A stretch of DNA of 34,153 nucleotides. It comes from a virus. Numbering within the stretch: the stretch's first letter is position 1; each line of letters begins with the position of its first letter. The stretch covers positions 1 to 34,153 of the IMG/VR virus record IMGVR_UViG_3300035660_000048; one strand, given 5' to 3'. The notes beneath the pieces were generated by a model. The model saw nothing but the letters and a program-made list of their open reading frames with translations. It had not been told where the DNA came from and did not search any database. Of this stretch, positions 1,210 to 33,358 are shown in pieces. The position numbers were made by a program, and so were the translations under genes.

Positions 1210-1533
1210 ATGACGCAATATCAGGACCTCGTCTGGCGCGTATTCACCGAGAGTGACTCGCTCCAGGCCCTCACGCAACACGAGATCGCCGAGCGCACCG
1301 GCCTCCCGCTCACGACAGCTCATCGCGCGGTGCGGCGCCTCATTGCGCTCCGCTGGCTCTGCCTCTGCCAGGGCCGCGTGATCCTCGGGCCCCGGCTCGG
1401 CGAGACATGCATGTCGGTCGGCATGCAATGGGCCGGCAGCGCCATCGTCCTCAGCGGCCCGAAACCGCCAGCCGCTTCCAAGGGTCCCATAGGTCCTATT
1501 CGTCCTATCCGTCCTATCGGCAGGAGAACATGA
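1210..1533 (+). CDS. Winged-helix DNA-binding protein with repeat-encoded tail
   Basis: 107 residues; ATG with GAGG at 1201-1204. Residues about 18-60 (LTQHEIAERTGLPLTTAHRA, then VRRLIALRWL) match an IclR/MarR-like winged helix with recognition helix TTAHRAVRRL. The C-terminal GPIGPIRPIRPIGRR is translated from type B array 1484-1519, so the tail is a by-product of the repeat. The stop TGA overlaps the next ATG (ATGA at 1530), implying coupled translation. Probably an early transcriptional regulator; the target is unknown. Confidence 0.6.
   Translation: MTQYQDLVWRVFTESDSLQALTQHEIAERTGLPLTTAHRAVRRLIALRWLCLCQGRVILGPRLGETCMSVGMQWAGSAIVLSGPKPPAASKGPIGPIRPIRPIGRRT
1484..1519. repeat. Type B repeat array 1 (in frame)
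   Basis: Four units of about 9 bp (GGTCCCATA, GGTCCTATT, CGTCCTATC, CGTCCTATC), read through in the GPI frame at the C-terminus of the winged-helix gene. Confidence 0.85.
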
Positions 1534-1796
1534 CCATCGGCGCTCAGCTCCCGCTCTTCTGCGAGTTCTGCATCGTTGGCCAGCCCCAGCTCGTCGCCGA
1601 CGACAACAACAAACCCATCCTGGAATGTGCCAAGTGCGGCAGCGTGTTCGTGATCGTCGGCAGGCGCTGGCGCCGCCGGCTCACAGTCATTGACGGCGTA
1701 GATGTCCTGGACAGTCCGCCGGAGAGCGAGAACACCACTGATAGCACGGATAACGCGGATAGCCCCGATCGGGAACAGCAAGGGGATCAGGAATGA
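1530..1796 (+). CDS. Small zinc-ribbon protein
   Basis: 88 residues; ATG preceded by AGGAG and overlapping the previous stop. CEFC near residue 11 and CAKCG near 34 form a two-CxxC zinc ribbon. A basic stretch (GRRWRRRLTV) follows. The tail NTTDSTDNADSPDR is translated from a type A-like repeat (about 1733-1770). The gene ends in ATGA, overlapping the next. Probably a nucleic-acid-binding early protein; function unknown. Confidence 0.55.
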   Translation: MTIGAQLPLFCEFCIVGQPQLVADDNNKPILECAKCGSVFVIVGRRWRRRLTVIDGVDVLDSPPESENTTDSTDNADSPDREQQGDQE

Positions 1797-2095
1797 GGCG
1801 CGAGCAGAAAATCGCCGAACTCAAACAGATCATCGGGCATTGCCGGATCGCCGAAGAACATTTCGAAGCGAATATGATCGATTGCCAACGGCATCTTCGA
1901 AACGATCTCTTATTCCTCCGTCGAGCCAAGCAATTGGTCAAAGCCGGAGAGGACAAGAAATTGGTCACGGCAGCCGACGCTAATATCCGCGCGTTCAAGC
2001 GCGCCTTCGCCGACTTTGCTGAGTTGATCGAGTCTTCGCGGATCCAACGGATGATTGCCGAGAAAATGTTGAAGGAGACCAGGAATGAAGCGTGA
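1793..2095 (+). CDS. Small helical early protein, unknown
   Basis: 100 residues, start overlapping the previous stop. Almost entirely charged helix with regular hydrophobic spacing (HLRNDLLFLRRAKQL), suggesting a coiled coil. No enzyme motif. Its last codons overlap the next start by 11 nt, so the five genes 1210-2960 form one tightly coupled block. Confidence 0.55.
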   Translation: MRREQKIAELKQIIGHCRIAEEHFEANMIDCQRHLRNDLLFLRRAKQLVKAGEDKKLVTAADANIRAFKRAFADFAELIESSRIQRMIAEKMLKETRNEA

Positions 2096-2960
2096 GGAAA
2101 AGAACACCGGAGCCACGCCCGCGCAGCACGCAGCCGTCACAGCGATCACACAGGCCGAGAAGGACAAGACGATCGCCGACCGCCAGTTCGAGGTCATGCT
2201 CCGGCCCTTCGCACAGCCGGGAGAATTCAACCGTGCGGAGAACATGGCGTTCATCCAATCCATGTTCCGCGATGCCGCCGACCGCATTCTCAATGCTGGC
2301 TGTGCGCTAATTTGCCATAAGGCGAATCTCAAGCACGGCGAATTCCTTGAGGATCTTGAGCGTTACGGCATCCCGATTCGAATGGCCGCACGGGCCATGA
2401 ACGCGGCTCGAAAACTGCGGAATGTAAGGGAATTAGTAAACGGCGCTAATTTGACCGCCTCAAAAGTTCTCATTCTTGCGGAAGAAATGACACAGGACGA
2501 GGCCAAAGAGCTTCTGGAAGGCGAGACGGTTGGCACGTTGACACTCGACCAGTTCCAACGCATGACGACCGACGAGGCGCGCGAGGCAGCCCGCGCCGCG
2601 AGCAAGCGCGAACATCGGAATCGCCAGGAGAGGGACAGCCTGCGCAGCCAACTCAACACCGCCCTTGATGAGAATGCGTCGCTTCGCGAGCAACAACTCC
2701 CGGCCGACGAACTCGCCTGCATGAAAGCCCTCAGCGAGTGGGAGGCGGGATTCTACGGCCAGATGCATCGCATCAAGGGCATCGAGCCCGAGCGGTGGCA
2801 GATCACCTGCATCGAAGCGGCGCAAATACTGAGCCGTGTCGCCGAGCTACTCGAAGCCAGGATACCACACTTCACGCGGATTCAGAGCGAGATGTTCGCC
2901 GCCGAGGAGGAGGCCGAGCAGAACGGCCCGGCGCGGGATAGCCGGAGACAGAAGAAGTGA
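2085..2960 (+). CDS. DUF3102-like phage protein
   Basis: 291 residues; AAGGAG at 2072-2077 lies 7 nt before the ATG. Residues about 75-105 (GCALICHKANLKHGEFLEDL, then ERYGIPIRMAARAMNAARKL) resemble the DUF3102 motif, in which a host-like region with HGEF.. is followed by an HTH-like helix. The middle (170-210) is a strongly charged coiled coil, and the C-terminus is acidic then basic. DUF3102 proteins occur in phages and plasmids and may bind DNA; the exact role is unknown. The stop TGA is shared with the first base of type A copy 2. Confidence 0.5.
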   Translation: MKREEKNTGATPAQHAAVTAITQAEKDKTIADRQFEVMLRPFAQPGEFNRAENMAFIQSMFRDAADRILNAGCALICHKANLKHGEFLEDLERYGIPIRMAARAMNAARKLRNVRELVNGANLTASKVLILAEEMTQDEAKELLEGETVGTLTLDQFQRMTTDEAREAARAASKREHRNRQERDSLRSQLNTALDENASLREQQLPADELACMKALSEWEAGFYGQMHRIKGIEPERWQITCIEAAQILSRVAELLEARIPHFTRIQSEMFAAEEEAEQNGPARDSRRQKK

Positions 2961-3030
2961 CCACTGATAACACGGATAGCACGGATTCAATCCTATCCTC
3001 GTTATCCCAATCATCCGTGCTATCTGTGGT
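2960..3030. repeat. Type A palindromic repeat, copy 2
   Basis: Starts at the last base of the upstream stop codon (TGACCACTGATAAC) and ends with ATCCGTGCTATCTGTGGT. The arms are complementary with a few mismatches. Confidence 0.85.
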
Positions 3031-3060
3031 CAAAACGACACTCGAATACCAGGAGATTCG

Positions 3061-3313: not shown

Positions 3314-3508
3314 ATGGTGAAGCTCATCGAGATCGAGCAGCTCGACTTGACGGGGTTGGCCGAGCTCCAGCACCGCATTCTCACGAGGAAAATGCTCCTG
3401 CTGGAGGACCGCAAGCGCGATCTCCACGCGCAGATCGCCGAGATCGACGACGAGCTCCGCGGCATCGGCTACGCCCTGAGACCGATTGGCTCATCATCGG
3501 TCCGATAG
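3314..3508 (+). CDS. Small coiled-coil early protein
   Basis: 64 residues; AAGGAG about 8 nt upstream comes from the preceding type C repeat. A leucine/arginine-rich helix spans residues 15-55 (LQHRILTRKMLLLEDRKRDL). The TAG stop lies inside type B array 2. The C-terminal IGSSSVR is partly repeat-encoded. Function unknown. Confidence 0.5.
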   Translation: MVKLIEIEQLDLTGLAELQHRILTRKMLLLEDRKRDLHAQIAEIDDELRGIGYALRPIGSSSVR

Positions 3509-3524
3509 GTCCTATACGTCCTAT
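3498..3524. repeat. Type B repeat array 2
   Basis: Three 9-bp units (GGTCCGATA, GGTCCTATA, CGTCCTAT). The first provides the TAG stop of the upstream gene. Confidence 0.85.
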
Positions 3525-7719: not shown

Positions 7720-7755
7720 GGTCCTATAGGTCTTATAGGTCCTATACGTCCTATG
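7720..7755. repeat. Type B repeat array 3 (supplies a start codon)
   Basis: Four 9-bp units; the last (CGTCCTATGG) contains the ATG of the gene at 7753. Confidence 0.85.
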
Positions 7756-8094
7756 GAGCTCACCGCCGACATCCTGTGGAAGTTCCTGAGCGAGCGCCAT
7801 CGCGGGCGCGCGCACGCGATCACGCAAGGCATGATCGCCACCGTTTTCGACTGCGACGATCGGCTCATCTGCCGGCTCACGATGGAACTCCTCGAGCGAG
7901 GCCAACTCATCGCGTCGAGTTGCCGGCCGCCGATGGGAGTCTATGTCGTCGAGACGCGCGAGGAGAAACTCGACTACGTGCGCCAGCTCGACAACCGGCT
8001 GCGCGAAACCTATCGCCGGCGGCGGATGTTCGACGGCACGCCGATCGAGGAGCTTGTGCGGCAGGGGATTTTCGGCTTCGGCGCGGAGAAGTGA
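7753..8094 (+). CDS. Winged-helix-like early protein
   Basis: 113 residues. The start ATG is inside the type B array with no good ribosome site; a frame extending upstream to 7681 would have to translate the repeat. Residues 15-70 (MIATVFDCDDRLICRLTMEL, then LERGQLIASSCRPPMGVYVV) resemble a winged helix with a beta wing. A basic segment RLRETYRRRRMF follows. Probably DNA binding. The stop TGA shares a base with type A copy 4. Confidence 0.6.
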   Translation: MELTADILWKFLSERHRGRAHAITQGMIATVFDCDDRLICRLTMELLERGQLIASSCRPPMGVYVVETREEKLDYVRQLDNRLRETYRRRRMFDGTPIEELVRQGIFGFGAEK

Positions 8095-8432: not shown

Positions 8433-8463
8433 CATAGGTCGTATGAGTCCTATAGGTCCTATT
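8433..8463. repeat. Type B repeat array 4 (supplies a start codon)
   Basis: ATAGGTCGTATGAGTCCTAT and a further unit. The unit GTCGTATGA contains the ATG of the GemA-like gene, so the array is translated as MSPIGPI. Confidence 0.8.
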
Positions 8464-8988
8464 CAAGCGCGCACGCCCGCTCAGCTCCGCATGCTCTGGT
8501 CGATCGCCCGCGGCCTCGGCCTCGACTCCGCGCTCCTGCACGAGGTCGTCCGCGACGAGACCGGCTCCGAGCACATCAGCACGCTCAGCCGTGCGCAGAT
8601 TCATCGCGTCATCGATCGGCTCCAGGGGAAATCGCTGACGGGCGTCCGGGGCCACGTCGCCAATCCCGGCGGAATCTCGAAAGAGCAACTTGGTAAAATC
8701 CTGAAACTCAGCTATCTCGTTTTCTCCGGCGACGCGACGGACGAGCAGCGCGCCGAATCCGGCCGCCGACTCCGCGGCTGGATTCTCCACATGTCGAAAG
8801 GGCTCTGGCGCCGCCCGGACGATCTCTCAGCGGTCTGGGCCGGGAAGATCATCGAATCACTGCGAGCTCTCGCGCATCGCAAGCACATCCCGCTCTCTGA
8901 GTCCGATAGGTCCGACAGGTCCGATTCGTCCTATTCGTCCGATCGGCCCGACGTTCCGCAGGGAGATCGCCATGCAATGCCAGCGTGA
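8443..8988 (+). CDS. GemA-like (Mu gp16 / DUF1018) protein
   Basis: 181 residues. Residues 11-60 (QLRMLWSIARGLGLDSALLH, EVVRDETG, LSRAQIHRVIDRLQ) fit the DUF1018 N-terminus, and VWAGKIIESLRALAHRKH near 140-157 fits its C-terminal helix. Mu GemA modulates host gene expression and DNA topology. Both ends are repeat-derived: MSPIGPI comes from type B array 4 and SDRSDRSDSSYSSDRPD from array 5. The end overlaps the next gene by 17 nt. Assignment rests on motif shape and position. Confidence 0.65.
   Translation: MSPIGPIQARTPAQLRMLWSIARGLGLDSALLHEVVRDETGSEHISTLSRAQIHRVIDRLQGKSLTGVRGHVANPGGISKEQLGKILKLSYLVFSGDATDEQRAESGRRLRGWILHMSKGLWRRPDDLSAVWAGKIIESLRALAHRKHIPLSESDRSDRSDSSYSSDRPDVPQGDRHAMPA
8901..8948. 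repeat. Type B repeat array 5 (in frame)
   Basis: Five units of about 9 bp (TCCGATAGG, TCCGACAGG, TCCGATTCG, TCCTATTCG, TCCGATCGG) translated in the S-D/Y-R/S frame near the C-terminus of the GemA-like protein. Confidence 0.85.
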
Positions 8989-9540: not shown

Positions 9541-9874
9541 TCCCCCGCAAAGTCCCGGCGCACCCCCACGCGCCGGGCGTTCTCCTGACCCCGGGCGGGC
9601 GGCTGACCTCTTCGCCGTGGCGAACCGCCCGCCCACTTCATCGGCGCGGGGCTCACATAAGTCCGAGAGGGCCTATAGGTCCGATCCCGCCTGGCTCACC
9701 GCCAAGCAGGCCGCGCCCCGGCTGGGCGTGAGCCAGCGAACCGTCTATCGCTGGGCGACGGACGGCATGCTCGAGTCCCGCCGGATCGGCGGCCGCCTTT
9801 ACATCGCCGACGCCTCGGTCCGGCGGTGGGAATTGACCACTGATAACACGGATAGCACGGATGACACGGATTGA
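9515..9874 (+). CDS. Excisionase/MerR-type HTH protein
   Basis: 119 residues from ATG 9515 (AGAGGA upstream; ATG 9527 is an alternative). The N-terminal 60 residues are proline-rich and disordered, partly encoded by type B array 6. The C-terminal domain AWLTAKQAAPRLGVSQRTVY..WATDG..RRIGGRLYI is the HTH_17 fold of Xis/AlpA-like proteins. The last residues ELTTDNTDSTDDTD are translated from type A copy 5: a TGA sits one frame over at the usual repeat boundary, so the gene may have lost its original stop. Probably a transcription or recombination regulator. Confidence 0.65.
   Translation: MNTTMPSSDPPQSPGAPPRAGRSPDPGRAADLFAVANRPPTSSARGSHKSERAYRSDPAWLTAKQAAPRLGVSQRTVYRWATDGMLESRRIGGRLYIADASVRRWELTTDNTDSTDDTD
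9661..9686. repeat. Type B repeat array 6 (in frame)
   Basis: TCCGAGAGG, GCCTATAGG, TCCGATCCC, translated as SERAYRSD between the proline-rich part and HTH of the excisionase-like protein. Confidence 0.75.
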
Positions 9875-9924
9875 TTCTGATCCGTGCTATCCGTTCGCCG
9901 AGGCGAATCCGTGCTATCCGTGGT
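9836..9924. repeat. Type A palindromic repeat, copy 5
   Basis: ACCACTGATAACACGGATAG on the left and TCCGTGCTATCCGTGGT on the right. The right arm has an extra 14-nt palindrome TTCGCCGAGGCGAA (9894-9907) between two copies of TCCGTGCTATCCG. It may act as a 3' stem for the early operon. 9925-10002 holds no gene that I can see. Confidence 0.8.
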
Positions 9925-10505: not shown

Positions 10506-11513
10506 ATGATGAGAAGCATGGGATTGATCACGGTGCGGATGTCGAATTTCGAGTCCGGCCATAGCTACCTCTCAGATGAGAGCATGGCCACGATGCTCCA
10601 CAAACACGTCGCGGCCGAGTTGCCGGGCTGGCGCGTATCACTGTTCGACAGCCAGGACGACGGCTGCCATATCGAGGTCGAGCCGGATGACCGCTCGGCC
10701 GAGATCGACATCGATGAAATTGCAACTACCGTCGACGAGATTCTGGAGACGATGTGGGCCGAGGCCTGCGAACTGAAACCCGGCTACGTCTGGTTGCACC
10801 GTTGCGCGACGTGTGATCGGGAATCCGATGTGAGCAATGAGCCGGATGCGGCGGATCGCGACGACTGGCGTTGCCCGAAATGCCATCGAGCCAAACCCGC
10901 CGACGGGCTCATCCGGGTCGCAATCTACGCCGAGCACTGCGTGCGCGCCGGCGAGCGCGCCTGGGAGATCGAGGAGGAAAATCGGCAGACCCATGATGCG
11001 GATTGGCACGAGGGAACGGAGACCGAGTTGCGGGAAACCGCGATCCGGCTCTACCGGGCCGCCGTCGAGTCCCGCCACGCCGGCCGCGATCTTTACGAGC
11101 GTCGAGCGGCCCGCACGCTGGCCGATGCCGTCGGCCTCTCCGCCGCCGATCTCGAGATGCATGCCTGGGCCGCCGCTCACGGCTCCGAGCATCTGAAAAC
11201 GTCGCTCGCGCGGGGCTACGATTCCAAGCGCATCTACAAACTGGAGCGGGGGGCGCTGGAATGGCCTGGGTGGTTCCTCGACATGGATGATGAGGTAGAT
11301 GAGCGCGAGCGCTCGAATCCCTCACCGGCCGCTCTGGCCGTCGAGACCGAGGTTGAGATATCTCTGCGTGGCCGCGGAGTGGAAAACGAGGTGCGAGTCG
11401 TCTGGCTACCGTTCGGGACGCGGGACATGTTCCCCGGCGAGACCGTCGTCATCCGGGACTACCTCGGACACGATCTCTATGTCCAGCACGACTCGTTCGA
11501 GCGCGCCAGATAG
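10506..11513 (+). CDS. Cassette protein with internal zinc ribbon, unknown
   Basis: 335 residues; the start is fixed by AGGAGG at 10497-10502. Residues 1-95 look like an alpha/beta domain with acidic helix (EIDIDEIATTVDEILETMW). C100, C103, C123 and C126 form a zinc ribbon (HRCATC..WRCPKC). Residues 140-235 are helical with an ArgGlu-rich segment; the C-terminal 100 residues look beta-rich (EVEISLRGRGVENEVRVVWL). No family recognised. It ends in a TAG within a short type B remnant and is followed by a terminator, so with the SWIM gene it forms a moron-like unit between early and structural genes. Confidence 0.7.
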   Translation: MMRSMGLITVRMSNFESGHSYLSDESMATMLHKHVAAELPGWRVSLFDSQDDGCHIEVEPDDRSAEIDIDEIATTVDEILETMWAEACELKPGYVWLHRCATCDRESDVSNEPDAADRDDWRCPKCHRAKPADGLIRVAIYAEHCVRAGERAWEIEEENRQTHDADWHEGTETELRETAIRLYRAAVESRHAGRDLYERRAARTLADAVGLSAADLEMHAWAAAHGSEHLKTSLARGYDSKRIYKLERGALEWPGWFLDMDDEVDERERSNPSPAALAVETEVEISLRGRGVENEVRVVWLPFGTRDMFPGETVVIRDYLGHDLYVQHDSFERAR

Positions 11514-11538
11514 GACATATCGGGCCGATCGGACCTGC

Positions 11539-12624: not shown

Positions 12625-13863
12625 ATGGAGTTTCCCGCTCCGCCGTCATCCTGGGACACCTATGCAGTCAGCGACGTTGGGCCGCTGCTCGCATATCTCT
12701 GGAACGCGGCCGTGGCGATTCACACCAACGTGCTCGCGGCCGTTGCTGACGTCCAGGCCGGGATCACGATTTTGCTGGAGCGAATCACGGACGCAGTCGC
12801 AACGGCGGCTGCTCTCGCCGCGCACGAGAGCAATCTCGCCACGGCCCAGGCCGACCTCTCAACGCTCCTCACTCGAATCACGGATATCGTTGCGAGCGCT
12901 ACCACGCTCGCAAGTCATGATGCGAAACTGGGTACCGCCCAGGGGGATCTGACCACGCTCGTCTCCCGTGTTACGGGAATCGTGGCGCTAGGCACCGATC
13001 TCGCGACGCTCGACGCCAAAGCCGCGCTCGAAAGCACGCTCGCCGCGATCAAGGGCGGCGACTGGGGCGAGAACGACACGATGCACAACGCCGTCGCCTA
13101 TGCGAATCTCAGCAATCAGCGCATCGGCGATCCGGGGAGTTACGGCGGAGGCTCAGTGCTGTCGCGCCTCGGCGACGATACGGCGATCGCCAAAGCAGCC
13201 GCACTCACGACCGCTCAGGGCGACCTCACGACCCTTCTCGCGCGCGTGACGGCGGCCGTCGCGACCGCCTCCGCGCTCTCGACGCATGACGGCAAACTCG
13301 ATACGGCGCAGGGGAATCTCACGACGATCCTCTCCCGCGTGACTGAGGCCGTCGCGACCGCCTCGGCACTCTCGACCCACGACGGGAAACTCGATACGGC
13401 GCAGGGAAATCTCACGACGCTCCTCGCCCGCGTGACTGAGGCCGTCGCGACCGCCTCGGCGCTCTCGACGCATGACGGCAAACTTGATACAGCCCAGGGG
13501 AATCTCACAACGCTCCTCACGCGCGTGACAGAGGCCGTCGCAACTGCCGCGAATCTCGCGACGCTCGACGGCAAGGCCGCGCTGGAAACAACGCTCGGAA
13601 ACCGCCCGACCCTTACACAGATCGAGGCGAGCACTGTCCTGGCGAAACAGACGGAACTCCTCCGCGCACTCGGACTCGTCCACGAGAACATGTACCTCGA
13701 TACGATCGTCACCGACTCCAACGGCAATCTCACGAGCGGTCGGCTCCGATCCTACTCGGCAGCCGGCTCCGTCGGCACGGATGCCGACGTTCTCGCCACA
13801 TACACGATCACGGCGGTCTACACCGGCACGGCGCTCACGAGCTACAAGGTCGTGAAAACATGA
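12625..13863 (+). CDS. Repetitive fibre / neck-appendage-like protein
   Basis: 412 residues; GGAG precedes ATG. Seven 31-residue units start near residues 47, 78, 109, 201, 232, 263 and 294, with consensus LTTLLARVTEAVATASALST, then HDGKLDTAQGN. They look like a shaft of coiled-coil type. Residues 131-200 are a non-repeat insert. The C-terminus (LDTIVTDSNGNLTSGRLRSY ... TYTITAVYTGTALTSYKVVK) resembles a small beta domain found at the end of phage fibre or neck proteins. It lies before the terminase genes, unlike the other tail genes. Structural role likely; exact place in the virion unknown. Confidence 0.6.
   Translation: MEFPAPPSSWDTYAVSDVGPLLAYLWNAAVAIHTNVLAAVADVQAGITILLERITDAVATAAALAAHESNLATAQADLSTLLTRITDIVASATTLASHDAKLGTAQGDLTTLVSRVTGIVALGTDLATLDAKAALESTLAAIKGGDWGENDTMHNAVAYANLSNQRIGDPGSYGGGSVLSRLGDDTAIAKAAALTTAQGDLTTLLARVTAAVATASALSTHDGKLDTAQGNLTTILSRVTEAVATASALSTHDGKLDTAQGNLTTLLARVTEAVATASALSTHDGKLDTAQGNLTTLLTRVTEAVATAANLATLDGKAALETTLGNRPTLTQIEASTVLAKQTELLRALGLVHENMYLDTIVTDSNGNLTSGRLRSYSAAGSVGTDADVLATYTITAVYTGTALTSYKVVKT
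13225..13596 (+). repeat. 93-bp tandem repeat, four units
   Basis: Units at 13225, 13318, 13411 and 13504 are nearly identical at DNA level (for example CTCTCGAC.CA.GACGG.AA), showing recent duplication and possible copy-number change without frame loss. Confidence 0.85.
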
Positions 13864-14002: not shown

Positions 14003-14278
14003 ATGATTCTGCGAGCTCAGGATATCGCCACGATGGGACGGATAGGACGGACAGGACAGATACTCGCTACGCTCGGGCGTCTCGCCAGTGGAGTGCTCGT
14101 AGTTCTGCGGACGGGCGTTCGGATTCTCTGCTCGGCCGCGGCCCACGTCGGCCGCTCGGGCGTCGCCGCCCGTGGCGTCGCATCCGCGATCGCATCCGGC
14201 CGCGCGAGAACCGGGATCTCCGTTCGCCAGGGCAGCGGATCGGCGACCGGCCACGTCGCCCGGGGGGACGTGAGATGA
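14003..14278 (+). CDS. Small basic protein, unknown
   Basis: 91 residues; GAGAGGTGAC precedes ATG. An N-terminal hydrophobic part (ATLGRLASGVLVVLRTGVRI) and a Gly/Ser/Arg-rich end. Codons 11-20 (MGRIGRTGQI) are read from a type B-like array in reverse orientation. Overlaps the next gene by ATGA. Low similarity expected to anything known. Confidence 0.4.
   Translation: MILRAQDIATMGRIGRTGQILATLGRLASGVLVVLRTGVRILCSAAAHVGRSGVAARGVASAIASGRARTGISVRQGSGSATGHVARGDVR
14033..14061. repeat. Type B array 7 (reverse orientation, in frame)
   Basis: GGGACGGATAGGACGGACAG and GACAG: the complement-sense form of the type B unit inside the gene at 14003. Confidence 0.6.
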
Positions 14279-14604
14279 CCGATCACATCATCGTGACCCA
14301 GAACGATACGCCGACGCTGACGTTCACCTGCGTCTATGAGGATACGGGATTGCCGATCGACCTGAGCACGGCCACGCTCCTGCTCGTCTGCAAAACGGCA
14401 GACCTCGTAACGACATTGTTCACGAAACTCGACGCGACGTTCGGAAAATCGCAGGCGGCTTCGGGGATCGTGACAGTCGTGCTCTCGGCGACAGATACGG
14501 CCGTCGCAGCCGACCGCGCCGTCGGCGAGCTTCAGGCGACGATCGGCTCGACGGTGCTCACGCTCTCACGATTCATTCTCACGATCAGGGATGATCTGGC
14601 ATAG
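14275..14604 (+). CDS. BppU-N-like small structural protein
   Basis: 109 residues; start overlaps the previous stop. All-beta pattern DTPTLTFTCVYEDTGLPIDL, then STATLLLVCKTAD .. GIVTVVLSATDT .. GELQATIGSTVLTL resembles the N-terminal domain of phage baseplate upper/fibre adaptor proteins. The TAG stop lies in type B array 8. Probably a virion component paired with the fibre gene just upstream. Confidence 0.5.
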   Translation: MTDHIIVTQNDTPTLTFTCVYEDTGLPIDLSTATLLLVCKTADLVTTLFTKLDATFGKSQAASGIVTVVLSATDTAVAADRAVGELQATIGSTVLTLSRFILTIRDDLA

Positions 14605-14630
14605 GTCCTCTAGGTCCTATTCGTCCTATG
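14601..14630. repeat. Type B array 8 (stop plus start)
   Basis: ATAGGTCCTCTAGGTCCTAT and TCGTCCTATG: the first unit gives the TAG stop of the upstream gene and the last the ATG at 14628. Confidence 0.9.
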
Positions 14631-15218
14631 AGCAGAACGCGGATCAGCCACGAGAAACTCCAGGCGGTGCGAGCCGCCTACAAACGCGCCGGCTCGATCG
14701 GCGGCACCTGGGCGATCCTCCATGAGAAAGAGCCGGAGATGCGGGTCAGCATGGCCTCGATCGCGACGGAGCTGAAGCATCACAAAAAACAGTGGCTGCG
14801 CGAGTTCGAGCGGGACACCGCCATCGAACAGGCGAAAGAAGAGGCCCACCTCAAGGGCTTGAAACGGTGGGAGGTCGAGATCGTCGGCGGACTGGAAAAG
14901 GTGTTCCGAAAACTCAGGGACAAAATCCTCGACTCGCGGAAGTTCAACTCTCAGGACGTGTTCTCGCTCGCGCGAGCGGCGGATACGATCCACCGAATCG
15001 TCACCGGCGGCGACATCCGGCCCGACTTCGGCCGCGCCCGCGATTTCGAGATCTTCTGGGAGCTGCTCCTCGACGATCGCAACGTCGGCGAGTATCTCAA
15101 AAACGCCGGCATCAAACGGAAACTGCTGATGGAATATCAGCGACGCCGCACCATCGCCGAGTTCGCTGGTGATTCATCCGATAGGTCGAATAGGTCGCAT
15201 AGGTCCGATAATGACTGA
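14628..15218 (+). CDS. Small terminase subunit candidate
   Basis: 196 residues. Start ATG is the end of type B array 8 and has no proper ribosome site. N-terminal HTH (ISHEKLQAVRAAYKRAGSIG, ... ASIATELKHHKKQW) fits a DNA-binding TerS head domain. A helical middle (KGLKRWEVEIVGGLEKVFRK) would form the oligomer. The end DSSDRSNRSHRSD is encoded by type B array 9. It lies immediately before, and overlaps by 8 nt, the large terminase gene. Assignment depends on position plus HTH. Confidence 0.65.
   Translation: MSRTRISHEKLQAVRAAYKRAGSIGGTWAILHEKEPEMRVSMASIATELKHHKKQWLREFERDTAIEQAKEEAHLKGLKRWEVEIVGGLEKVFRKLRDKILDSRKFNSQDVFSLARAADTIHRIVTGGDIRPDFGRARDFEIFWELLLDDRNVGEYLKNAGIKRKLLMEYQRRRTIAEFAGDSSDRSNRSHRSDND
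15178..15210. repeat. Type B array 9 (in frame, before terminase start)
   Basis: CCGATAGGTCGAATAGGTCG and CATAGGTCC units, coding for the C-terminus of the small terminase candidate and ending at the ATG of the large terminase. Confidence 0.85.
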
Positions 15219-16676: not shown

Positions 16677-16752
16677 CACCACGGATAACACGGATTACAC
16701 AGATAGCACGGATCGAATCAGTGCTATCCGATTCATCCGTGTTATCAGTGGT
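16677..16752. repeat. Type A palindromic repeat, copy 7
   Basis: CACCACGGATAACACGGATT on the left and ATCCGTGTTATCAGTGGT on the right, 20 nt after the terminase stop. 16753-16860 holds no convincing gene; a 36-codon frame at 16758 lacks a ribosome site. Confidence 0.8.
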
Positions 16753-16921: not shown

Positions 16922-19213
16922 ATGGCCCGAAAAGCTCAAAATCAGGTGGCGCTGGCTGAGCCGCCGAAATCCGAGGCGCGGAAGCGCGTTGAAAAGCGCG
17001 AACTGGGCGAGCTCGGGGCCGCCGAATCGACCTGGCTCGGCACGCTGAAACTCAGCACCTACAATCCCGATGACCTCGTCACCGCGAAAGGCGGTCTCAC
17101 CGTCTACCAGAAAATGACGGCCGATCCCGTCGTGAAAAAATCGCTCCGCGAGGTCATCCTCCGCGTGATCGCGCTCCCGTGGCAGATCACCGCCGCGACG
17201 GAGGACGAACGCGATCAGGACGTGGCCGATTTCGTGCAGTGGAACTTCGACAACATCGAGGGCGTGTTCTCGAAGGATTTGTGGGACCTCTGCGATGCGC
17301 TCACCGCCGGATTCTCGATCACGGAACCGGTCTATCAGTATCTCGATCGCCGGCCGTGGGCCGGGCGGATCGGACTGAAGGCGCTGAAATCCAAGGATCC
17401 GCAGTATTGGGGATTCAAGCTCGACCGATTCCGCAATCTCCAGAAATTGATCTGCTCCATCGACGGCAAGCAGGAGGAATTCGAGCCAGCGGATTTCATC
17501 GTCTATTCCCATCTTGCCCGTTACGAGGACCCGCACGGCCAGAGCGAATTGCGCGCGGCCTATCGCGCTTGGTGGCTGAAAGATACCGCCATGAAACTCA
17601 GGGCCGTCTTCGTCGAACGCTACGCGAATCCGCTCCCGGTTGGCAAATTCCCACGCGGCACAAAAAAAGAGGAAGTCGATAAATGGCTCACATGCCTCAA
17701 GCGGATTCAGGCTGAGACGGCCTTCGTCATCCCGGATGATCTCGCCCTCGAACTCAAGCAGATCACGACGGCCACCGACCAGGTTTTCCATTCGGCGATT
17801 GTCGATTGTAACGACGAGATCACGAGCGGCATCCTGATGGCGACGATCACGGGCAGCGTGCCGGAGGTCGGTGCTCGATCGCTCGGCGAAGTCCACGAGC
17901 GCACGCGCGATCTTGTGGTGCCCTTCCTCGCTGCTCTCATCGCCGACACGCTCAACGAGCAGCTCGTGAAGCGCCTCGTCGAGATGAACTTCGCGGTCGA
18001 GGAGCCGCCGACGTTCGGGTTCGTGATTCAGGAATCGGTCGATCTCGAACGCGAATCGCGGATCGACGATACGCTCGTGAATCGCGTGCGCCTGCCCCTC
18101 TCGAAAACCTACTTCTACGAAAAGTACGGCCGGCCCGAGCCTGAGGATGAGGAGGAACTCGTCGAGGGCGCAACCGTGCCGACGGCCGCGCTCTTCGCCG
18201 AAGATAGGTCGAATAGGGCCTATCGGTCCTATGCCGAGGAGGACCTCCTCGAGCAGCAGCAGGCCGGTCAGCTCCAGCGCGAGAATGCCGATCTCGATGC
18301 GGTCTATTCAGCCGCCCGCGCTCAGGCCATGCCGACGTTCGAGACCATCTTCGATGCCATCGAGCAGCGGGCCGAGCGGTCCGGCCAGTTCGCACTCGAT
18401 CGCACCGCGCGCGACTACGGCCAGATCGGCAAGATCACGGGCGCGATCAACGTCGGCGAGCTCCAGGAGATCGTCGAACGGCTCATCGTCACGGCCGATC
18501 TCGCCGGCCGACTCCACTCGACTCAGGTGATGAAACGGCTCCATCAGCGATATGCGCCGCCTGAGGAGAAACGGAACTGGCCGGAGTTCGAGAAATTTGC
18601 GGAGAGCATCCGCACATTACTGACGGATACGGAGGCCCGTGATATCCTCGCTGGGAAAATCCCGATGACGCGGACTCAGTTCAATCTCCTCCGCGGCGTG
18701 GCGAGGGACAAGGCGTTCACGGTCGCGGGCCTTGCGAAAAACGGGATCGCGAATGACGTGCAGCCGCTCGTGCTCCAGGCATTCGACGCTGGCTGGGACT
18801 TCGACCGATTCCGGTCGGAGCTCCAGCGAAAGCGGCTGACCTACATCGACGAGGTGTTCGGCGGCGGCGCCGAGGGCGAACCGATCTCCGATCGACATGC
18901 GGAGACGATTTTCCGAACGAACATGATGTCCGCGTATAACGGCGGCCGCCGTGCCGCGATGGAGGACCCGCAGCTCGCCGACATGTTCCCAGCGTGGCAG
19001 TACTCGGCGGTGATGGACGGCCGGACTCGGCCCGCTCATGCCGAAATGGACCGGAAGGTTTTCCTGAAGACCGATCCGATCTGGAAAATCTGGTATCCGC
19101 CGAACGGATACAACTGCCGATGCAGCGTCTATCCGGTCGTGAAATGGCAGTTGACGCCGGACATGATCAGCGACTATCCGACGGGGAAACCCGATGTCGG
19201 ATTTGGAGGCTGA
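16922..19213 (+). CDS. Portal protein (DUF935, Mu gp29-like) fused to gpF-like head morphogenesis domain
   Basis: 763 residues. Residues 1-425 fit the DUF935 portal family (for example RAAYRAWWLKDTAMKLRAVF, then ERYANPLPVGKFPRGTKKEE). Residues 620-763 fit the Mu gpF minor head protein: ETIFRTNMMSAYNGGRR .. MDGRTRPAHAEMDRKVF .. YNCRC at 730-734. In Mu these are separate neighbouring genes (29 and 30). Residues about 428-438 (DRSNRAYRSY) come from type B array 10, exactly where the portal domain ends, so the fusion may have passed through the repeat. GGGAG lies 12 nt before ATG. Confidence 0.88.
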   Translation: MARKAQNQVALAEPPKSEARKRVEKRELGELGAAESTWLGTLKLSTYNPDDLVTAKGGLTVYQKMTADPVVKKSLREVILRVIALPWQITAATEDERDQDVADFVQWNFDNIEGVFSKDLWDLCDALTAGFSITEPVYQYLDRRPWAGRIGLKALKSKDPQYWGFKLDRFRNLQKLICSIDGKQEEFEPADFIVYSHLARYEDPHGQSELRAAYRAWWLKDTAMKLRAVFVERYANPLPVGKFPRGTKKEEVDKWLTCLKRIQAETAFVIPDDLALELKQITTATDQVFHSAIVDCNDEITSGILMATITGSVPEVGARSLGEVHERTRDLVVPFLAALIADTLNEQLVKRLVEMNFAVEEPPTFGFVIQESVDLERESRIDDTLVNRVRLPLSKTYFYEKYGRPEPEDEEELVEGATVPTAALFAEDRSNRAYRSYAEEDLLEQQQAGQLQRENADLDAVYSAARAQAMPTFETIFDAIEQRAERSGQFALDRTARDYGQIGKITGAINVGELQEIVERLIVTADLAGRLHSTQVMKRLHQRYAPPEEKRNWPEFEKFAESIRTLLTDTEARDILAGKIPMTRTQFNLLRGVARDKAFTVAGLAKNGIANDVQPLVLQAFDAGWDFDRFRSELQRKRLTYIDEVFGGGAEGEPISDRHAETIFRTNMMSAYNGGRRAAMEDPQLADMFPAWQYSAVMDGRTRPAHAEMDRKVFLKTDPIWKIWYPPNGYNCRCSVYPVVKWQLTPDMISDYPTGKPDVGFGG
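18203..18232. repeat. Type B array 10 (in-frame linker in the portal-gpF fusion)
   Basis: GATAGGTCGAATAGGGCCTA and TCGGTCCTATG: three 9-bp units in open frame, ending in an ATG as at real gene starts. Confidence 0.88.
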
Positions 19214-22234: not shown

Positions 22235-22269
22235 GACGTATAGGTCCTATACGTCCCATAGGTCCTATG
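22235..22269. repeat. Type B array 11
   Basis: GGACGTATAGGTCCTATACG, TCCCATAGGTCCTATGG: four units between capsid terminator and the next gene. Confidence 0.88.
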
Positions 22270-22288: not shown

Positions 22289-22567
22289 ATGGAAACTGTG
22301 AAAGGCCGCTACTCAGTCGCGCTGAAACGCATCATCGACGGCATGCCCCATCCGACGGGCGTCTATCGCCGGGCGGGATCGATCCTGACGTTCGAGCCGA
22401 CCATCGTGCTCGATCCGCCGAAAGTGCTTCTCGACGATCGCTGCCTCATCGCCAAGCGCCTGCCGGATGAGGAGAAGATCCGAAAGCCCCCGACGGCCGT
22501 CGAAGCCGAGGTCGCCGCGAAGCCGCACTTCGCGCGGAAGCGCGGCCGGCCGCGGAAAGTCCTATAG
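22289..22567 (+). CDS. Small protein with AT-hook-like end, unknown
   Basis: 92 residues from ATG 22289 with AGGTGA upstream; a GTG at 22280 would add three residues. The first half (VALKRIIDGMPHPTGVYRRA) resembles small head-tail joining proteins. The C-terminus ARKRGRPRKVL contains RGRP, an AT-hook-like basic motif. The TAG stop is in type B array 12. Confidence 0.5.
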   Translation: METVKGRYSVALKRIIDGMPHPTGVYRRAGSILTFEPTIVLDPPKVLLDDRCLIAKRLPDEEKIRKPPTAVEAEVAAKPHFARKRGRPRKVL

Positions 22568-22599
22568 GCCCTATAGGTCCTATCCGTCCTATAGGTCCG
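22559..22599. repeat. Type B array 12
   Basis: GTCCTATAGGCCCTATAGGT and CCTATCCGTCCTATAGG: five units, the first giving the upstream TAG stop. A GAGGAG ribosome site follows for 22610. Confidence 0.9.
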
Positions 22600-23071: not shown

Positions 23072-23107
23072 TTCGTCCTATAGCTCCGATAGGTCCTATA
23101 CGTCCAT
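23072..23107. repeat. Type B array 13 (start codon)
   Basis: ATTCGTCCTATAGCTCCGAT, AGGTCCTATACGTCCATG: the ATG of the next gene is in the last unit. Confidence 0.85.
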
Positions 23108-23804
23108 GATCTCCGCCCGATTCAAGAGCGACGAAGCGAAACGCGATCTCAAGCGCATCCGCGAGGCCGCGACCCCCGGCAGCGCGCAGCAGCAGGCGAT
23201 CTATCGCGGCTGGGGAATGTTAGCACTCACGAAGATCAAAGCGTGGTGGGATCAGAACGTCAAGGGCGGCGGCGCGTGGAAGCCGCTCTCGCCGCTGACC
23301 ATGCTTCTCCGCCGGCAGGGCGGCTCGCGGAAAATGCGCGATTGGAACGACGCGATGGCCGCGAGCCAGCAGGCCGAGATTCTACGCGACACGCGCATCC
23401 TCGAAACGTCGATCACGACAGGGCGCGGGAAGGGCGGCGTATTCGAGCTGCTCCGAAACGGAGTCGCCGTCGGCACGAATCTCAACTACGCACGGATTCA
23501 TCACGAGGGCGGCACGAGCTATTTTCAGTTCAATGACGAAGCGAAAGCGCGGTTCCAGAGGAACGTCCTCAAGGTCCTCCCGGGCCGGAAGCCGGTTCGG
23601 ACTCCGACTGGCCGGAAGTCCCGCGCGCATGCGAACTGGAATCCGTTCTACTTCATTCTGTGGAATGCTCTTCAGAAGAGGGCGAGCGATGCCATGACGA
23701 TTCCCCGACGGCCGCTCCTGCCCGAGCTGACCGAGAGCGATACAGAAGATTTTGCGCGCCTCACCCGCGAAATGTGGGATCAGATCGTGAGCCGATCAGG
23801 ATAG
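23106..23804 (+). CDS. Virion morphogenesis protein (Mu gpG / Phage_tail_S-like)
   Basis: 232 residues. ATG lies at the end of the type B array without a ribosome site. Motifs WKPLSPLTM, LRDTRILETSITT and VGTNLNYARIHHEGG fit the Phage_tail_S family (Mu gpG, phage P2 S), involved in finishing head or tail. Somewhat longer than Mu gpG. The TAG stop is in array 14. Confidence 0.8.
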   Translation: MISARFKSDEAKRDLKRIREAATPGSAQQQAIYRGWGMLALTKIKAWWDQNVKGGGAWKPLSPLTMLLRRQGGSRKMRDWNDAMAASQQAEILRDTRILETSITTGRGKGGVFELLRNGVAVGTNLNYARIHHEGGTSYFQFNDEAKARFQRNVLKVLPGRKPVRTPTGRKSRAHANWNPFYFILWNALQKRASDAMTIPRRPLLPELTESDTEDFARLTREMWDQIVSRSG

Positions 23805-23820
23805 GTCCTATAGGTCGTAT
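23801..23820. repeat. Type B array 14 (stop plus near-start)
   Basis: ATAGGTCCTATAGGTCGTAT: gives the upstream TAG stop and abuts the ATG at 23821; AGGT inside the unit may serve as a weak ribosome site. Confidence 0.88.
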
Positions 23821-24305: not shown

Positions 24306-25325
24306 ATGGCAGACCTCAAGGGCTTTCTCCTGCGTGCAGCTCTCATCCAGGGCGCGGCCTGGGGCACAGCGCTGGCGGCGACGAAACGGCTGGAGATTGT
24401 CCGCGAATCGGTCGTGAACGATCCCGATCTCCAGGACGATCCGACGCTCGAGGGCGACGCCGGCCACAACGACTCGTTCCTCGGCGCCGAGAAAAACGGA
24501 GGCGAACTCGAAATCGAAATGCAGTACGGCGGGAACGCCGACATGCTCCTCGCCGCCGCCATGGGCGCGTGCGCCGCGGGCACGCCCTCGCCGCCGGATT
24601 ACTACCAGTGGAACATGGCCCTCGCCGAGATCAGCGACTTCATCACGCTCGCACTCGACAAGCAGATCGCGATCCACGAGTTCGCATCGCTCGCGCCCGT
24701 GAAGTTCATCCTCTCAGCCGAGGCCGGCGGCCGTCTGATCTTCAAGCCGACGCTGCGCGGTCGGGGATTCGACAAGGCCAGCACAATCAACACGACGACG
24801 ACGATGGGCAATGCGGGAAAATCGGCGGCGCCGCGGATTCTCTTCAGCCACTTCCGATTCTTCCTCGGGGACAACGCCGACGCATTGGACGTGGCTCCGC
24901 CGTCGTCCGATGAGATCACGCTCCGCGGATTCGAGCTCTCCGTCGATCCGCAGATGGACAATCAGATCGTGAACACCGGTCCCGCTCAGCCGACTCAGGA
25001 GAATCGCCGAGTCATCACGCTCACCCTGAAACTCCCCAAGCTCAGTTCGATCAACTGGAAATCCTGGCAGGTCGGCATGACGCATCTGCAATTCGCGGCC
25101 CGCGCCGATGCGACGATCGCGACGAAGGTCTACAAATTCTACATCCATCTCGGCAAGCTCGAAGTCCGGAACGATCCGACGGCGATCGGCGGGCCTGAGC
25201 TCGTGAAGCCGGACCTCGTGCTCGTGGCTCGCCGAGCCGCCACGCTCTCGCTCACGTGGACCGGCATGACCGAGGAACTCGAAATCCAGACGCAGAACCA
25301 ACTGGACGCGAATCCGCTGGCATAG
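24306..25325 (+). CDS. Tail tube protein 1
   Basis: 339 residues from ATG 24306 (GGAGG at 24295-24299; ATG 24300 is too close to it). N-terminal RAALIQGAAWGTALAATKRL, then beta-rich repeats (GELEIEMQYGGNADMLLAAA, APVKFILSAEAGGRLIFKPT, RVITLTLKL) typical of siphovirus major tail proteins. TAG stop in array 15. It is followed by a second tube-like gene. Confidence 0.7.
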   Translation: MADLKGFLLRAALIQGAAWGTALAATKRLEIVRESVVNDPDLQDDPTLEGDAGHNDSFLGAEKNGGELEIEMQYGGNADMLLAAAMGACAAGTPSPPDYYQWNMALAEISDFITLALDKQIAIHEFASLAPVKFILSAEAGGRLIFKPTLRGRGFDKASTINTTTTMGNAGKSAAPRILFSHFRFFLGDNADALDVAPPSSDEITLRGFELSVDPQMDNQIVNTGPAQPTQENRRVITLTLKLPKLSSINWKSWQVGMTHLQFAARADATIATKVYKFYIHLGKLEVRNDPTAIGGPELVKPDLVLVARRAATLSLTWTGMTEELEIQTQNQLDANPLA

Positions 25326-25357
25326 GTCCCATAGGTCCGATAGGTCCTATAGGTGTC
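25322..25357. repeat. Type B array 15 (stop plus SD-like)
   Basis: ATAGGTCCCATAGGTCCGAT, AGGTCCTATAGGTG: four units; the first is the upstream TAG stop, the last AGGTG stands 3-7 nt before the ATG at 25358. Confidence 0.88.
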
Positions 25358-26407
25358 ATGAATAAGCTCGCTCTCGAAATCGAGGAGACCTACCGCGCCC
25401 CCCGCGATGTGCGGCACGGGCTGATCCCGTTCCTCTCGGAATCGCTGACCGGTCCGGATCGCACGATCGCACGCTCGGCCGCGAAACGAGGCGCCGTATC
25501 CGCTCTCGATCTCGCTGGGGAGGAGTATCCCGGCGAGCTCCGGCTGTCCGCGAGGTACGGCGGACTCGATAAATTGTGGACGTTCCTCCTCAGTTCTGTC
25601 TATGGCGGGCGGGCCGTCTATCATGCGAGCGGCGTCTATCGGAGCGAGCATCGGCTCCTCGATGATGAAACGCCGTCGGCGATCGTCGGCATCGAGAAGG
25701 GCGTTTCGATCTGGCAGCTCGCCGGCTGCCAGATTGCGGCGGGCCGGATTCACGGTGAGCCGGGCAAGCCCGTCGAGATCGCGCTGACCGCGCGGGCGGC
25801 CAGCCGCCAGCGTGATCATTCGCCGAATACTGTCTCGACCGGCTGGGCAATCCCCGGCCGATCCGACCTCTGCGGGACCGGCATCATGTGTGGCGACGGC
25901 ACTACCTGCGGCGAGCAGACCGCGCCGCCGAGCCGATATCCGCTCATCTTCTTCCAGCAACTGGCGTTTCAGATCGGGGCTGCGAGCGGCTCGATGAGCG
26001 GGATGGCTATCCGTCAGTTCGATGTCGACATCCGATTCGAGATGGAGCGGGAGATCGCAGCGGGCGGCCGAGCGCTCCAGCAGGGACGGCGGCGTGAGCC
26101 GACGATCACGTTCGACCTCATGCCACGCGGCTACGTGGCCGATACGTGGCTGGACTGGATGGACGATGAGACGGAGCTCAAGGCGAAGTTCCTGTTCAGC
26201 GGATCGGCACTCGACGGCGAGCACAACAACGAGCTCACGATCTGGCTGCCACGGCTCCGTGTCGCGGCGGCCGTGGCTTCGGCGAACCGAGCCGGCTCGC
26301 TCGATCATCCGATCACGATGCGGGCACTCTGCCCGGCGAGCGTGCCCTCGGGATTCCCGGCGGGAGCGGCGCGGGAGATTTTCATCGAGACGCAACACTG
26401 GGGATAG
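25358..26407 (+). CDS. Tail tube protein 2 with cysteine-rich loop
   Basis: 349 residues. Same general layout as the preceding protein: LALEIEETYRAPRD at the start, LRLSARYGGLDKLWTFLLSS, and later QFDVDIRFEMEREI and PTITFDLMPRGYVA. Residues about 170-190 hold an added loop with CGTGIMCGDGTTCGE (three Cys at 6-residue spacing). It could be a diverged duplicate of the tube gene or a tube-end protein. A perfect 10-bp inverted repeat lies in its coding DNA (25709-25734). TAG stop in array 16. Confidence 0.65.
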   Translation: MNKLALEIEETYRAPRDVRHGLIPFLSESLTGPDRTIARSAAKRGAVSALDLAGEEYPGELRLSARYGGLDKLWTFLLSSVYGGRAVYHASGVYRSEHRLLDDETPSAIVGIEKGVSIWQLAGCQIAAGRIHGEPGKPVEIALTARAASRQRDHSPNTVSTGWAIPGRSDLCGTGIMCGDGTTCGEQTAPPSRYPLIFFQQLAFQIGAASGSMSGMAIRQFDVDIRFEMEREIAAGGRALQQGRRREPTITFDLMPRGYVADTWLDWMDDETELKAKFLFSGSALDGEHNNELTIWLPRLRVAAAVASANRAGSLDHPITMRALCPASVPSGFPAGAAREIFIETQHWG

Positions 26408-26441
26408 GTCGTATAGGTCGAATAGGTCCTATAGGTCAGAT
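26402..26441. repeat. Type B array 16
   Basis: ATAGGTCGTATAGGTCGAAT, AGGTCCTATAGGTCAG: four to five units giving the upstream TAG stop; a separate GAGGAG serves the next gene. Confidence 0.9.
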
Positions 26442-27086: not shown

Positions 27087-27151
27087 TCACTGATAACACG
27101 GATAGCACGGATTCGATCTGTGTTATCCGAGATATCCGTGTTATCCGTGGT
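27086..27151. repeat. Type A palindromic repeat, copy 8
   Basis: TGATCACTGATAACACGGAT from the gpGT stop, and ATCCGTGTTATCCGTGGT before the next gene's ribosome site. Confidence 0.85.
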
Positions 27152-28335: not shown

Positions 28336-29612
28336 GCAGGATCGTTCTCGAAATCACAGGCGATTCCAGCGGTGCGATTCAGGCCGTCACGCTCGTCGAG
28401 CAGAAACTGAACTCGGCGGCGAACTCCGTCACGGCAGCCGGCAAGCGCATGCAGGATTCGATTCGCATGCCTGGCGCCGCGGAGCCCGGAGCGGGCCTCA
28501 ACGCTGTGAACATCCAAATGGCTCGGCTCACGCAGACCGCGACAAGCGCGTCCGAACGGATGCTCGGCATGACCTACTCCCTCAAATCTATGGACCCGAC
28601 GAATCTCGCCTACGTCGCGACGAGCATGGCTAGGATTGCGATCAACGCATCGGCTGCCGGTTCATCGGCGAGCGCGATGGGGACGGTGCTGGCTAAGCTC
28701 GCGCCCATGCTCGCAGTTGCCGGGCAAGCGGCGGTCGGATTCGGCGTAGCGATCGCCGGATGGAATCTCGGCAAATGGCTCGGCGAGGTCACAGGGATCG
28801 GTCCGGCGATCGGCGAAGCAATCGCGGGACTCAAGCAGATTCGCGAGGAGGCGGCCCTCACCGAGGCAGCCGCGATCGCCGCCCGCAAGGGACTGACGGA
28901 TTCACAGCGAGCGGCGGCCGCCGCCGTCGGTTATACGCTTGAACAGATGATCGTTTTCTCGAACGAGGCGCGGAAGTTCCAGGAGACGGCTGGTCTGGGA
29001 TTCTCTGATCTCGCCAAACGGCTCGCCAAAGATGCGATCAAAAGCGTTGGCGACATGGGCACCGTCTATACGGTCACGGCTGTTGAACTCCGCCGTCGCG
29101 CGGAGGAGGATGCTCTCAAGCTGGCGAAATCCCATGACGTGACGATAAAGAAAATCGCCGAAACGCAGATCGAAACCGTCGCCGCTCTCCAGGATTGGCA
29201 GACGGAGAACTTCCGCATGGCCGAGGAGCAGCGCTTGGCCATCTCGAAGTCGACGGCGGACGAGATGATCGGCGATGTGAATCGGGTCGTCGCCGCGCAA
29301 GTGGTGGCGACGATGTGGTTCGCTCGGACCGCCGGTGTGACGGGCTACGGGCTCGGCCCCGGGCCGGCTGTCGTGATCCCGAATCTGGAGGCGCCGCCGG
29401 TGAGCCAGCCGGGCAGCCCGATCGGCTACGCGAACTATGCTCAGCCCGGCGGCGGCACGCCGAGCTCGGGCGTCGTCTCCATTGTGAATGCGAACGTGGC
29501 GATCAATGCGGGCGCAATCGTCGATCCGGCGAACGTCCGAGCAGCAGCCGCACTCCTCGGCTCCGAGATCGCAAAACAGACGGCCCGGAATCAGATCACC
29601 GTCATCGGTTGA
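28332..29612 (+). CDS. Tape measure protein candidate (short)
   Basis: 426 residues; start overlaps the previous stop. Helical throughout, with Ala/Ser/Gln-rich N-terminal coiled coil (LVEQKLNSAANSVTAAGKRM), a hydrophobic Ala/Gly region at about 118-155 (LAPMLAVAGQAAVGFGVAIA) typical of tape measures, further coiled coil and a Gly/Pro-rich end. Follows the GT chaperone as expected. A tape measure of this length predicts a tail of roughly 60 nm by the usual 0.15 nm per residue, shorter than most siphoviruses. Confidence 0.65.
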   Translation: MSRIVLEITGDSSGAIQAVTLVEQKLNSAANSVTAAGKRMQDSIRMPGAAEPGAGLNAVNIQMARLTQTATSASERMLGMTYSLKSMDPTNLAYVATSMARIAINASAAGSSASAMGTVLAKLAPMLAVAGQAAVGFGVAIAGWNLGKWLGEVTGIGPAIGEAIAGLKQIREEAALTEAAAIAARKGLTDSQRAAAAAVGYTLEQMIVFSNEARKFQETAGLGFSDLAKRLAKDAIKSVGDMGTVYTVTAVELRRRAEEDALKLAKSHDVTIKKIAETQIETVAALQDWQTENFRMAEEQRLAISKSTADEMIGDVNRVVAAQVVATMWFARTAGVTGYGLGPGPAVVIPNLEAPPVSQPGSPIGYANYAQPGGGTPSSGVVSIVNANVAINAGAIVDPANVRAAAALLGSEIAKQTARNQITVIG

Positions 29613-29640
29613 TAGGACGAATGAGACCGATAGGACCTAT
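29611..29640. repeat. Type B array 17 (reverse orientation)
   Basis: GATAGGACGAATGAGACCGA, TAGGACCTAT, between tape measure and the next tail gene. Confidence 0.8.
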
Positions 29641-33004: not shown

Positions 33005-33060
33005 GCCCGATCTGTGATCGGGCGTTCGGACTTCGGCGGGAGCCGCTCGCAGCGGGAACG
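33005..33060 (+). other. Two stem-loops between hub and holin-like genes
   Basis: GCCCGATC-TGT-GATCGGGC (33005-33023) is a perfect 8-bp stem starting 1 nt after the hub stop. The second is CCGCT-CGC-AGCGG (33043-33055), enclosed by CGTTC (33023-33027) and GAACG (33056-33060). No T-tract follows, so they look more like mRNA processing or stability elements than terminators. AGGAGG for the next gene follows. Confidence 0.65.
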
Positions 33061-33078
33061 CGTGAGAGGAGGTCCGCT

Positions 33079-33324
33079 ATGTTTGAGTGGATTCTGCGAA
33101 AGGTGCTCGGCAGCGCGATGTTTGAGAAGTTCGTCGGCACGAAGGTCGCCATGGCCATCGCCGCGCTCGTCGTCGTCCTGATCAACCACGGGCTGATCAG
33201 CCCCGAGGATCAGACCTCGGCGGCGACGGTGCTCACCGACGCGATCGCCGGGCTCGTCGCCGTCGCCTTCATGATCGCCCGCGCATGGACCGACACCACG
33301 GCGATCCGGGGCGGTCGGAAATAG
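33079..33324 (+). CDS. Holin-like small membrane protein
   Basis: 81 residues; AGGAGG at about 33067-33072. Two hydrophobic segments (VAMAIAALVVVLINHGLI and IAGLVAVAFMIARAW) separated by a short acidic loop, and a basic C-terminus: the class II holin pattern. Similar small proteins with these helices occur next to tail genes. TAG stop in array 18. Holin role is inferred; no endolysin is seen nearby. Confidence 0.6.
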   Translation: MFEWILRKVLGSAMFEKFVGTKVAMAIAALVVVLINHGLISPEDQTSAATVLTDAIAGLVAVAFMIARAWTDTTAIRGGRK

Positions 33325-33358
33325 GCCCTATCGGTCCTATCCGTCCTATTCGTCCTGT
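33321..33358. repeat. Type B array 18
   Basis: ATAGGCCCTATCGGTCCTAT, CCGTCCTATTCGTCCTG: four units, first giving the upstream TAG stop. Confidence 0.9.

Follow-up and report, generated by a model that had tools for sequence, protein, structure and literature searches.

The window analysed here, a stretch of 34,153 nucleotides from a virus (IMG/VR record IMGVR_UViG_3300035660_000048, positions 1 to 34,153), raises the question of why short tandem arrays with a 9-bp period stand between its genes. The first-pass annotation had proposed that these arrays (type B) are ready-made stop/start spacers, by which genes could be inserted or removed cleanly. The window was recognised as a Mu-like phage: it encodes a portal protein with a Phage_Mu_F domain, a Mu gpT head protein, gp36, a GemA-like protein, a MuB-type AAA ATPase and a terminase. 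The gene set comprised 45 plus-strand genes with hand-curated boundaries and predicted starts.

The type B unit consists of a fixed heptamer, GTCCTAT, followed by two variable bases, giving the period of 9. An automatic scan for GTCCTAT at 9-bp spacing returned 17 arrays in the window and TRF added a weaker one (15181-15205), in agreement with the earlier count of at least 18 arrays between genes; nearly all of them lie at gene junctions (Table 1). The unit had been described as a palindromic core containing TAG, which holds when the two variable bases are AG but not as a general rule: the sense-strand TAG and the CCTATAGG palindrome exist only with AG, many units therefore have no sense TAG, and the conserved part is GTCCTAT. 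Read antisense (ATAGGAC), every unit contains TAG. The density of type B repeats in the window (8 exact double cores in 34 kb) exceeds that of every cellular genome sampled.

Table 1. Repeat features of the window, with strand and position relative to the genes.
Feature	Position	Strand	Context
Type B array	1484-1517	+	Read through in the GPI frame; forms the C-terminal tail of gene 1210-1533
Type B array	3500-3524	+	First, degenerate unit holds the TAG stop of gene 3314-3508
Type B array	7721-7754	+	5 nt 3' of TGA 7715; last unit overlaps ATG 7753
Type B array	8438-8462	+	First unit overlaps ATG 8443 (GemA-like gene)
Type B array	8901-8943	+	Coding; supplies the C-terminal tail of the GemA-like protein (gene 8443-8988), past the Pfam GemA match
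Type B array, antisense	11510-11534	-	Starts at TAG stop 11513
Type B array, degenerate	14033-14057	-	Within an uncertain ORF (14003-14278)
Type B array	14602-14629	+	Starts at TAG stop 14604; last unit overlaps ATG 14628
Type B array, weaker	15181-15205	+	Encodes the C-terminal tail of gene 14628-15218; just 5' of the likely terminase start
Type B array, two units	18217-18232	+	Inside the portal gene, translated, between the Portal_Mu and Phage_Mu_F domains
Type B array	22241-22268	+	63 nt 3' of the major head protein stop 22177; 5' of start 22280
Type B array	22559-22592	+	TAG stop 22567 within the first unit
Type B array	23075-23099	+	3 nt past TGA 23071; ATG 23106 lies 6 nt further
Type B array	23802-23820	+	Starts at TAG stop 23804; abuts ATG 23821
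Type B array	25323-25350	+	Starts at TAG stop 25325, in-frame TAG repeated; ATG 25358 lies 7 nt later
Type B array	26405-26432	+	Starts at TAG stop 26407
Type B array, antisense	29612-29636	-	Overlaps TGA stop 29612 (TGA/TAGGAC)
Type B array	33322-33358	+	Starts at TAG stop 33324
Type A hairpins	2962-3028, 9838-9922, 16680-16750, 27088-27149		Strong (z -4.8 to -8.1)

The two-unit array inside the portal gene may be an old gene junction that was converted to a linker. The window also contains further families of short repeats: type A (CACGGAT plus two bases, mostly as inverted pairs), type C (CACAGAG plus two bases) and the heptamer repeats GCTGATA and TTCGAGT. Two of the type A hairpins lie directly 3' of TGA stops (2960 and 27086), and a single-arm copy is placed likewise at 8094. 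The gene at 12625-13863 contains an internal 93-bp coding tandem repeat (3.8 copies, 13225-13574).

The 45 genes end with 31 TGA, 11 TAG and 3 TAA codons. Eight of 12 TAG stops had been assigned to type B arrays; all eight positions were recovered, but the total is 11 TAG rather than 12, the array-free ones being at 6696, 12104 and 30008. Six of the eight stand exactly at the edge of an array and two within its first unit (Table 1). Stops are overlapped by 9 of the 18 arrays, against 0.7 expected under uniform placement across the window, which is far above chance, and 5.1 expected under random placement in junction zones (P = 0.04); over this junction-only null, the excess is modest. Eleven genes read into a type B array; the TAG frame is the one used by 8 of them (binomial P = 0.009; expectation 1/3), and three genes (ends 1533, 8988 and 15218) read through the array and gain array-coded tails. 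That the arrays supply stops was borne out beyond the window: arrays also start exactly at a TAG stop in a second phage contig (L048) and in a soil acidobacterium (G003).

Starts had been placed in or against the last unit, usually without a proper ribosome site. Shine-Dalgarno (SD) pairing was calculated for the six starts named (7753, 8443, 14628, 23106, 23821 and 25358) and for 15211. Pairing with the anti-SD was -2.0 to -2.4 kcal/mol in six of these seven and -4.9 kcal/mol at 8443, weaker than at the other window starts (median -7.4 kcal/mol, p = 1.7e-4). Adjacency and weak SD pairing were thus confirmed, but 8443 lies in the first unit, and the overlap of arrays with starts was not above chance (3 against 5.2 expected for random placement in junction zones, P = 0.93). 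Normal SD sequences precede the starts downstream of other arrays (22610, 26464 and 33385), and arrays formed no start peak across five cellular genomes. Starts are not drawn to arrays.

Type B arrays are not phage-specific, since they are present in cellular genomes of many phyla. At least 114 cellular genome stretches contain the triple core GTCCTATNNGTCCTATNNGTCCTAT; they come from many phyla, the carriers among the matches listed being Acidobacteriota, Planctomycetota, Kiritimatiellota, Lentisphaeria, Hydrogenedentota, deltaproteobacterial MAGs and others. The tandem arrays exist in many dispersed copies, 18 in the window and as many as 207 double cores in one cellular genome: 207 in an Acidobacteria gp7 MAG (G003), 185 in a Kiritimatiellota genome (G011), 165 in a deltaproteobacterial MAG (G001), 119 in G013, 105 in a Planctomycetaceae genome (G026) and 84 in G042. 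A reversed-pattern control for double cores was near zero in most genomes, the exception being G024, where the control equalled the pattern. Head-to-head inverted array pairs were frequent in G003, G026 and G013, and were seen neither in G011 nor among the type B arrays of the window.

Most viral contigs that match the triple core were discarded as carriers of arrays: there the 9-mer stems from collagen-like Gly-X-Y genes (GGT CCT ATT) and has an unrelated origin. Such phage genes (L014, L019, L023, L046 and others) mimic the 9-bp core and contaminate pattern searches. The few viral contigs that carry type B arrays include L037, which has a portal relative, and L048, where the protease relative terminates at the TAG of a seven-unit array. 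In Prevotella-type genomes (L081, L096, L120 and L153), type B arrays lie within long open frames of putative coding status.

The link to codon position was assessed in cellular loci that had been selected for carrying arrays, using gene calls from a home-made caller. In a first pass over 114 loci, 17 of 60 antisense arrays were at offset -3 from a stop, several of them on short low-score ORFs; because of these ORFs, and because 7 of the 17 came from G003, the first-pass offsets were set aside for a five-genome sample. In 20 loci of G003, 23 arrays face the 3' end of a gene and 14 of these are at or directly after the stop: eight at offset -3, where the first unit contributes the TAG that ends the gene, and six at offset 0, directly after the stop or overlapping its last base. 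Six more are at +5 to +12. For G003 elements in tandem gene context, 10 of 12 were no more than 12 bp from a stop and 1 of 12 that close to a start, and 8 of 12 were exactly at the stop against 0.7 expected; the placement null for G003 gave P = 0.0001. None of the 19 classified G003 elements fell in a divergent gap, a class that makes up 34 of 165 background gaps. Tandem in-frame stops were considered as the cause of this anchoring and rejected: arrays off the stop are in frame at about the chance rate (2 of 8 offsets).

Elements were closer to the stop in 17 of 20 cases in G013 (loosely placed) and in 8 of 12 cases in G026, and no element lay within 12 bp of a gene end in G011 or G001. Arrays are mostly intergenic, at junctions in the window, near stops in G003, G013 and G026, and away from genes in G011 and G001. 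The possibility raised against the spacer proposal, that arrays occur in non-coding DNA with no link to codon position, therefore describes G011 and G001 but is contradicted by G003 and, loosely, by G013. Sequence alone does not dictate stop-anchoring, given that the arrays of G011 and G001 show no gene link, and the exact anchoring is carried mainly by one genome, G003.

Gene ends with and without an array were compared in cellular genes only, because the relatives of the window phage are too distant (roughly 20-42% identity). The glyA gene of G003 ends ...RYPIY TAG, and the array begins from that TAG. Eighteen homologous loci (same order) were compared with it, of which one was cut by a contig end; all 17 readable homologues end in PIY or PLY, 15 at the same residue as G003 and two one residue later, with TGA, TAA or TAG as the stop and a type B array in none. 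The GAPDH-like gene ends in FREI both in G003, which uses the TAG of the array, and in 13 of 13 homologous loci, where the stop is TGA in 12 and TAG in one. For a third gene (formiminotransferase-like, named by eye), the relatives extend 0-13 residues past the G003 end, mostly 1-6, and because of this variation the array may have shifted the stop slightly. In two of the three genes the position of the end does not depend on the array, and an array can therefore supply a stop without creating the end. Common ends in array-free relatives (the GAPDH-like gene, and glyA in 15 of 17) lend no support to the proposal that arrays are ready-made ends for inserting or removing genes, with the third gene as the variable case. 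Other short tandem repeats lie just 3' of the glyA stop in L326 and L327 (period test), and similar ones were seen by eye in L328 and L334, which suggests that the spot after the glyA stop in relatives of G003 attracts repeats of differing sequence.

In the loci of phage relatives (L001-L013 and L305-L313, some of them short fragments), type B arrays of at least 2 units numbered only two (L307 and L311), and the window's other repeat families were absent. L307, from a Sumerlaeota MAG, is a prophage that encodes portal and protease relatives, and its array lies about 15 nt or less from the portal stop. As the relatives are almost array-free, junctions of this phage type need no arrays, which also speaks against gene insertion or removal by means of them.

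Taken as a whole, the observations are best explained by a dispersed repeat family that colonised a prophage, settles at gene 3' ends and is a tolerated passenger there (probability roughly 0.65). The type B arrays would be copies of the dispersed GTCCTAT-plus-two family that is common to cellular genomes of many phyla, and would have entered the Mu-like prophage presumably from its host; we infer this source, since the host was found neither through a prophage protein (one phylum) nor through the type A pattern (392 Planctomycetota genomes and viral contigs). The arrays take up positions at the 3' ends of genes, several of them precisely on the stop codon, which is then the array's own TAG. 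The protein end need not move, as seen in two of the three cellular genes compared, and in the packed phage operon the array would occupy the space before the next start. Re-initiation following termination of the upstream gene is the probable route of translation for some downstream genes with weak ribosome sites. The arrays would then be tolerated, partly co-opted passengers rather than a gene-swapping device of the phage. Simple tolerance alone does not explain the codon anchoring in G003; our preferred guess is that arrays are copied close to the ends of genes while purifying selection removes those that land within them. That repeats are copied specifically to stops, with their own TAG replacing the stop and the protein end unchanged, by a process active in both bacteria and phages, appears distinctly unlikely; if true, this would imply that the copying or targeting process can sense where a reading frame ends.

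The weak SD pairing at the seven array-adjacent starts and the TAG-frame bias would also suit arrays that are functional translation-junction elements, each giving a stop and a fixed-phase spacer for SD-less re-initiation, possibly with a repeat-binding protein. The tandem in-frame TAGs (TAG GTC CTA TAG) at 25325 and 26407 are consistent with such a function, and there is a precedent in the TAACTGA repeats of a Beggiatoaceae genome, which overlap upstream stops and apparently replace the SD (PMC4679880). Overlap with starts below expectation, the missing start peak in the five cellular genomes, the normal SD after other arrays and the phage relatives that manage without arrays all argue against it, and this explanation was considered unlikely. 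It seems very unlikely that the arrays are DNA or RNA 3'-end structures (terminator-like or exonuclease-blocking hairpins, or protein-binding sites) that work best right after a stop. Inverted pairs in G003, G026 and G013, the avoidance of divergent gaps in G003 and the strong type A hairpins of the window would fit, but the type B arrays of the window have a single orientation, fold weakly (z +0.3 to -3.1) and lie within co-directional phage gene runs, where terminators would harm. Moreover, the free bases of G003 show no covariation between arms (31 of 50 against 54% in shuffled arms; 21 of 200 shuffles were as good); G026 and G013 had too few scored pairs for this test.

Mobilisation by a Y1 (RAYT) transposase was considered because the arrays, like REP elements, are dispersed, often palindromic and intergenic. 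Next to no credence is given to this mover, which was largely refuted by array-rich genomes that have no detectable Y1_Tnp gene (G011, G013 and G042, with 185, 119 and 84 double cores) and by Y1_Tnp loci that are free of arrays (a type B array at 0 of 30). The results bear on short repeat arrays at gene ends, which are already known and poorly understood. One family with a 7-base core, common to many phyla and phages, makes the copying of arrays between genomes a testable question; whether arrays aid the end and restart of translation at packed gene junctions is a second. For annotation, the arrays are a source of spurious ORFs and protein tails (GPIGPI, SYRSYR, TDNTDN).

Comparison with known systems was based on open-access text, in which no paper with the exact GTCCTAT array strings was found; owing to this coverage, the blank is weak evidence of novelty. 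No Rfam family matched the window, L186, L206 or L262 at the gathering score. The arrays resemble REP/RAYT elements in being dispersed, palindromic and extragenic, and differ in their 9-bp tandem units and in that no link to a Y1 transposase was found. In Geobacter metallireducens, paired opposite-strand arrays of 7-9 bp repeats were proposed as sites of the global regulators IHF/HU (PMC2700814); these share the dispersed tandem 7-9 bp units and, with the arrays of G003, G026 and G013 though not those of G011 or the window, the opposite-strand pairs, but their unit sequences differ and the parts of that report consulted contain no stop-codon analysis. The TAACTGA heptamer repeats (MacGregor, 2015; PMC4679880) occur in Beggiatoaceae, Cyanobacteria and Bacteroidetes: in Beggiatoaceae there are 169 sets, 13 of which overlap the upstream stop, SD sequences are rare, and the distribution over phyla is patchy. 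Like these, the type B arrays are direct repeats with a heptamer, intergenic, patchy over distant phyla, in some cases placed on upstream stops and followed by starts without SD, and the mover is not known (PMC4679880). Unlike them, they have a GTCCTAT core with two free bases and a period of 9 rather than 7, are biased to stops rather than starts, form inverted pairs in several genomes and reach high density in a phage. The GGGAATC and GGGGA(C/T)T heptamer repeats of Xanthomonas and Nostoc (PMC4692102) are likewise intergenic arrays close to the 5' neighbouring ORF (at a mean of 28 nt in their case), some of which overlap the stop codon, with inverted pairs in Xanthomonas (PMC4692102); they are G-rich and form G-quadruplexes, whereas GTCCTAT has no G runs, and sequence and period differ. 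The type B arrays share neither the core sequence nor the exact 7-bp period of the TAACTGA and GGGAATC families, and may tentatively be regarded as a variant, so far undescribed in the open-access text searched, of the intergenic tandem repeats with a heptamer core.
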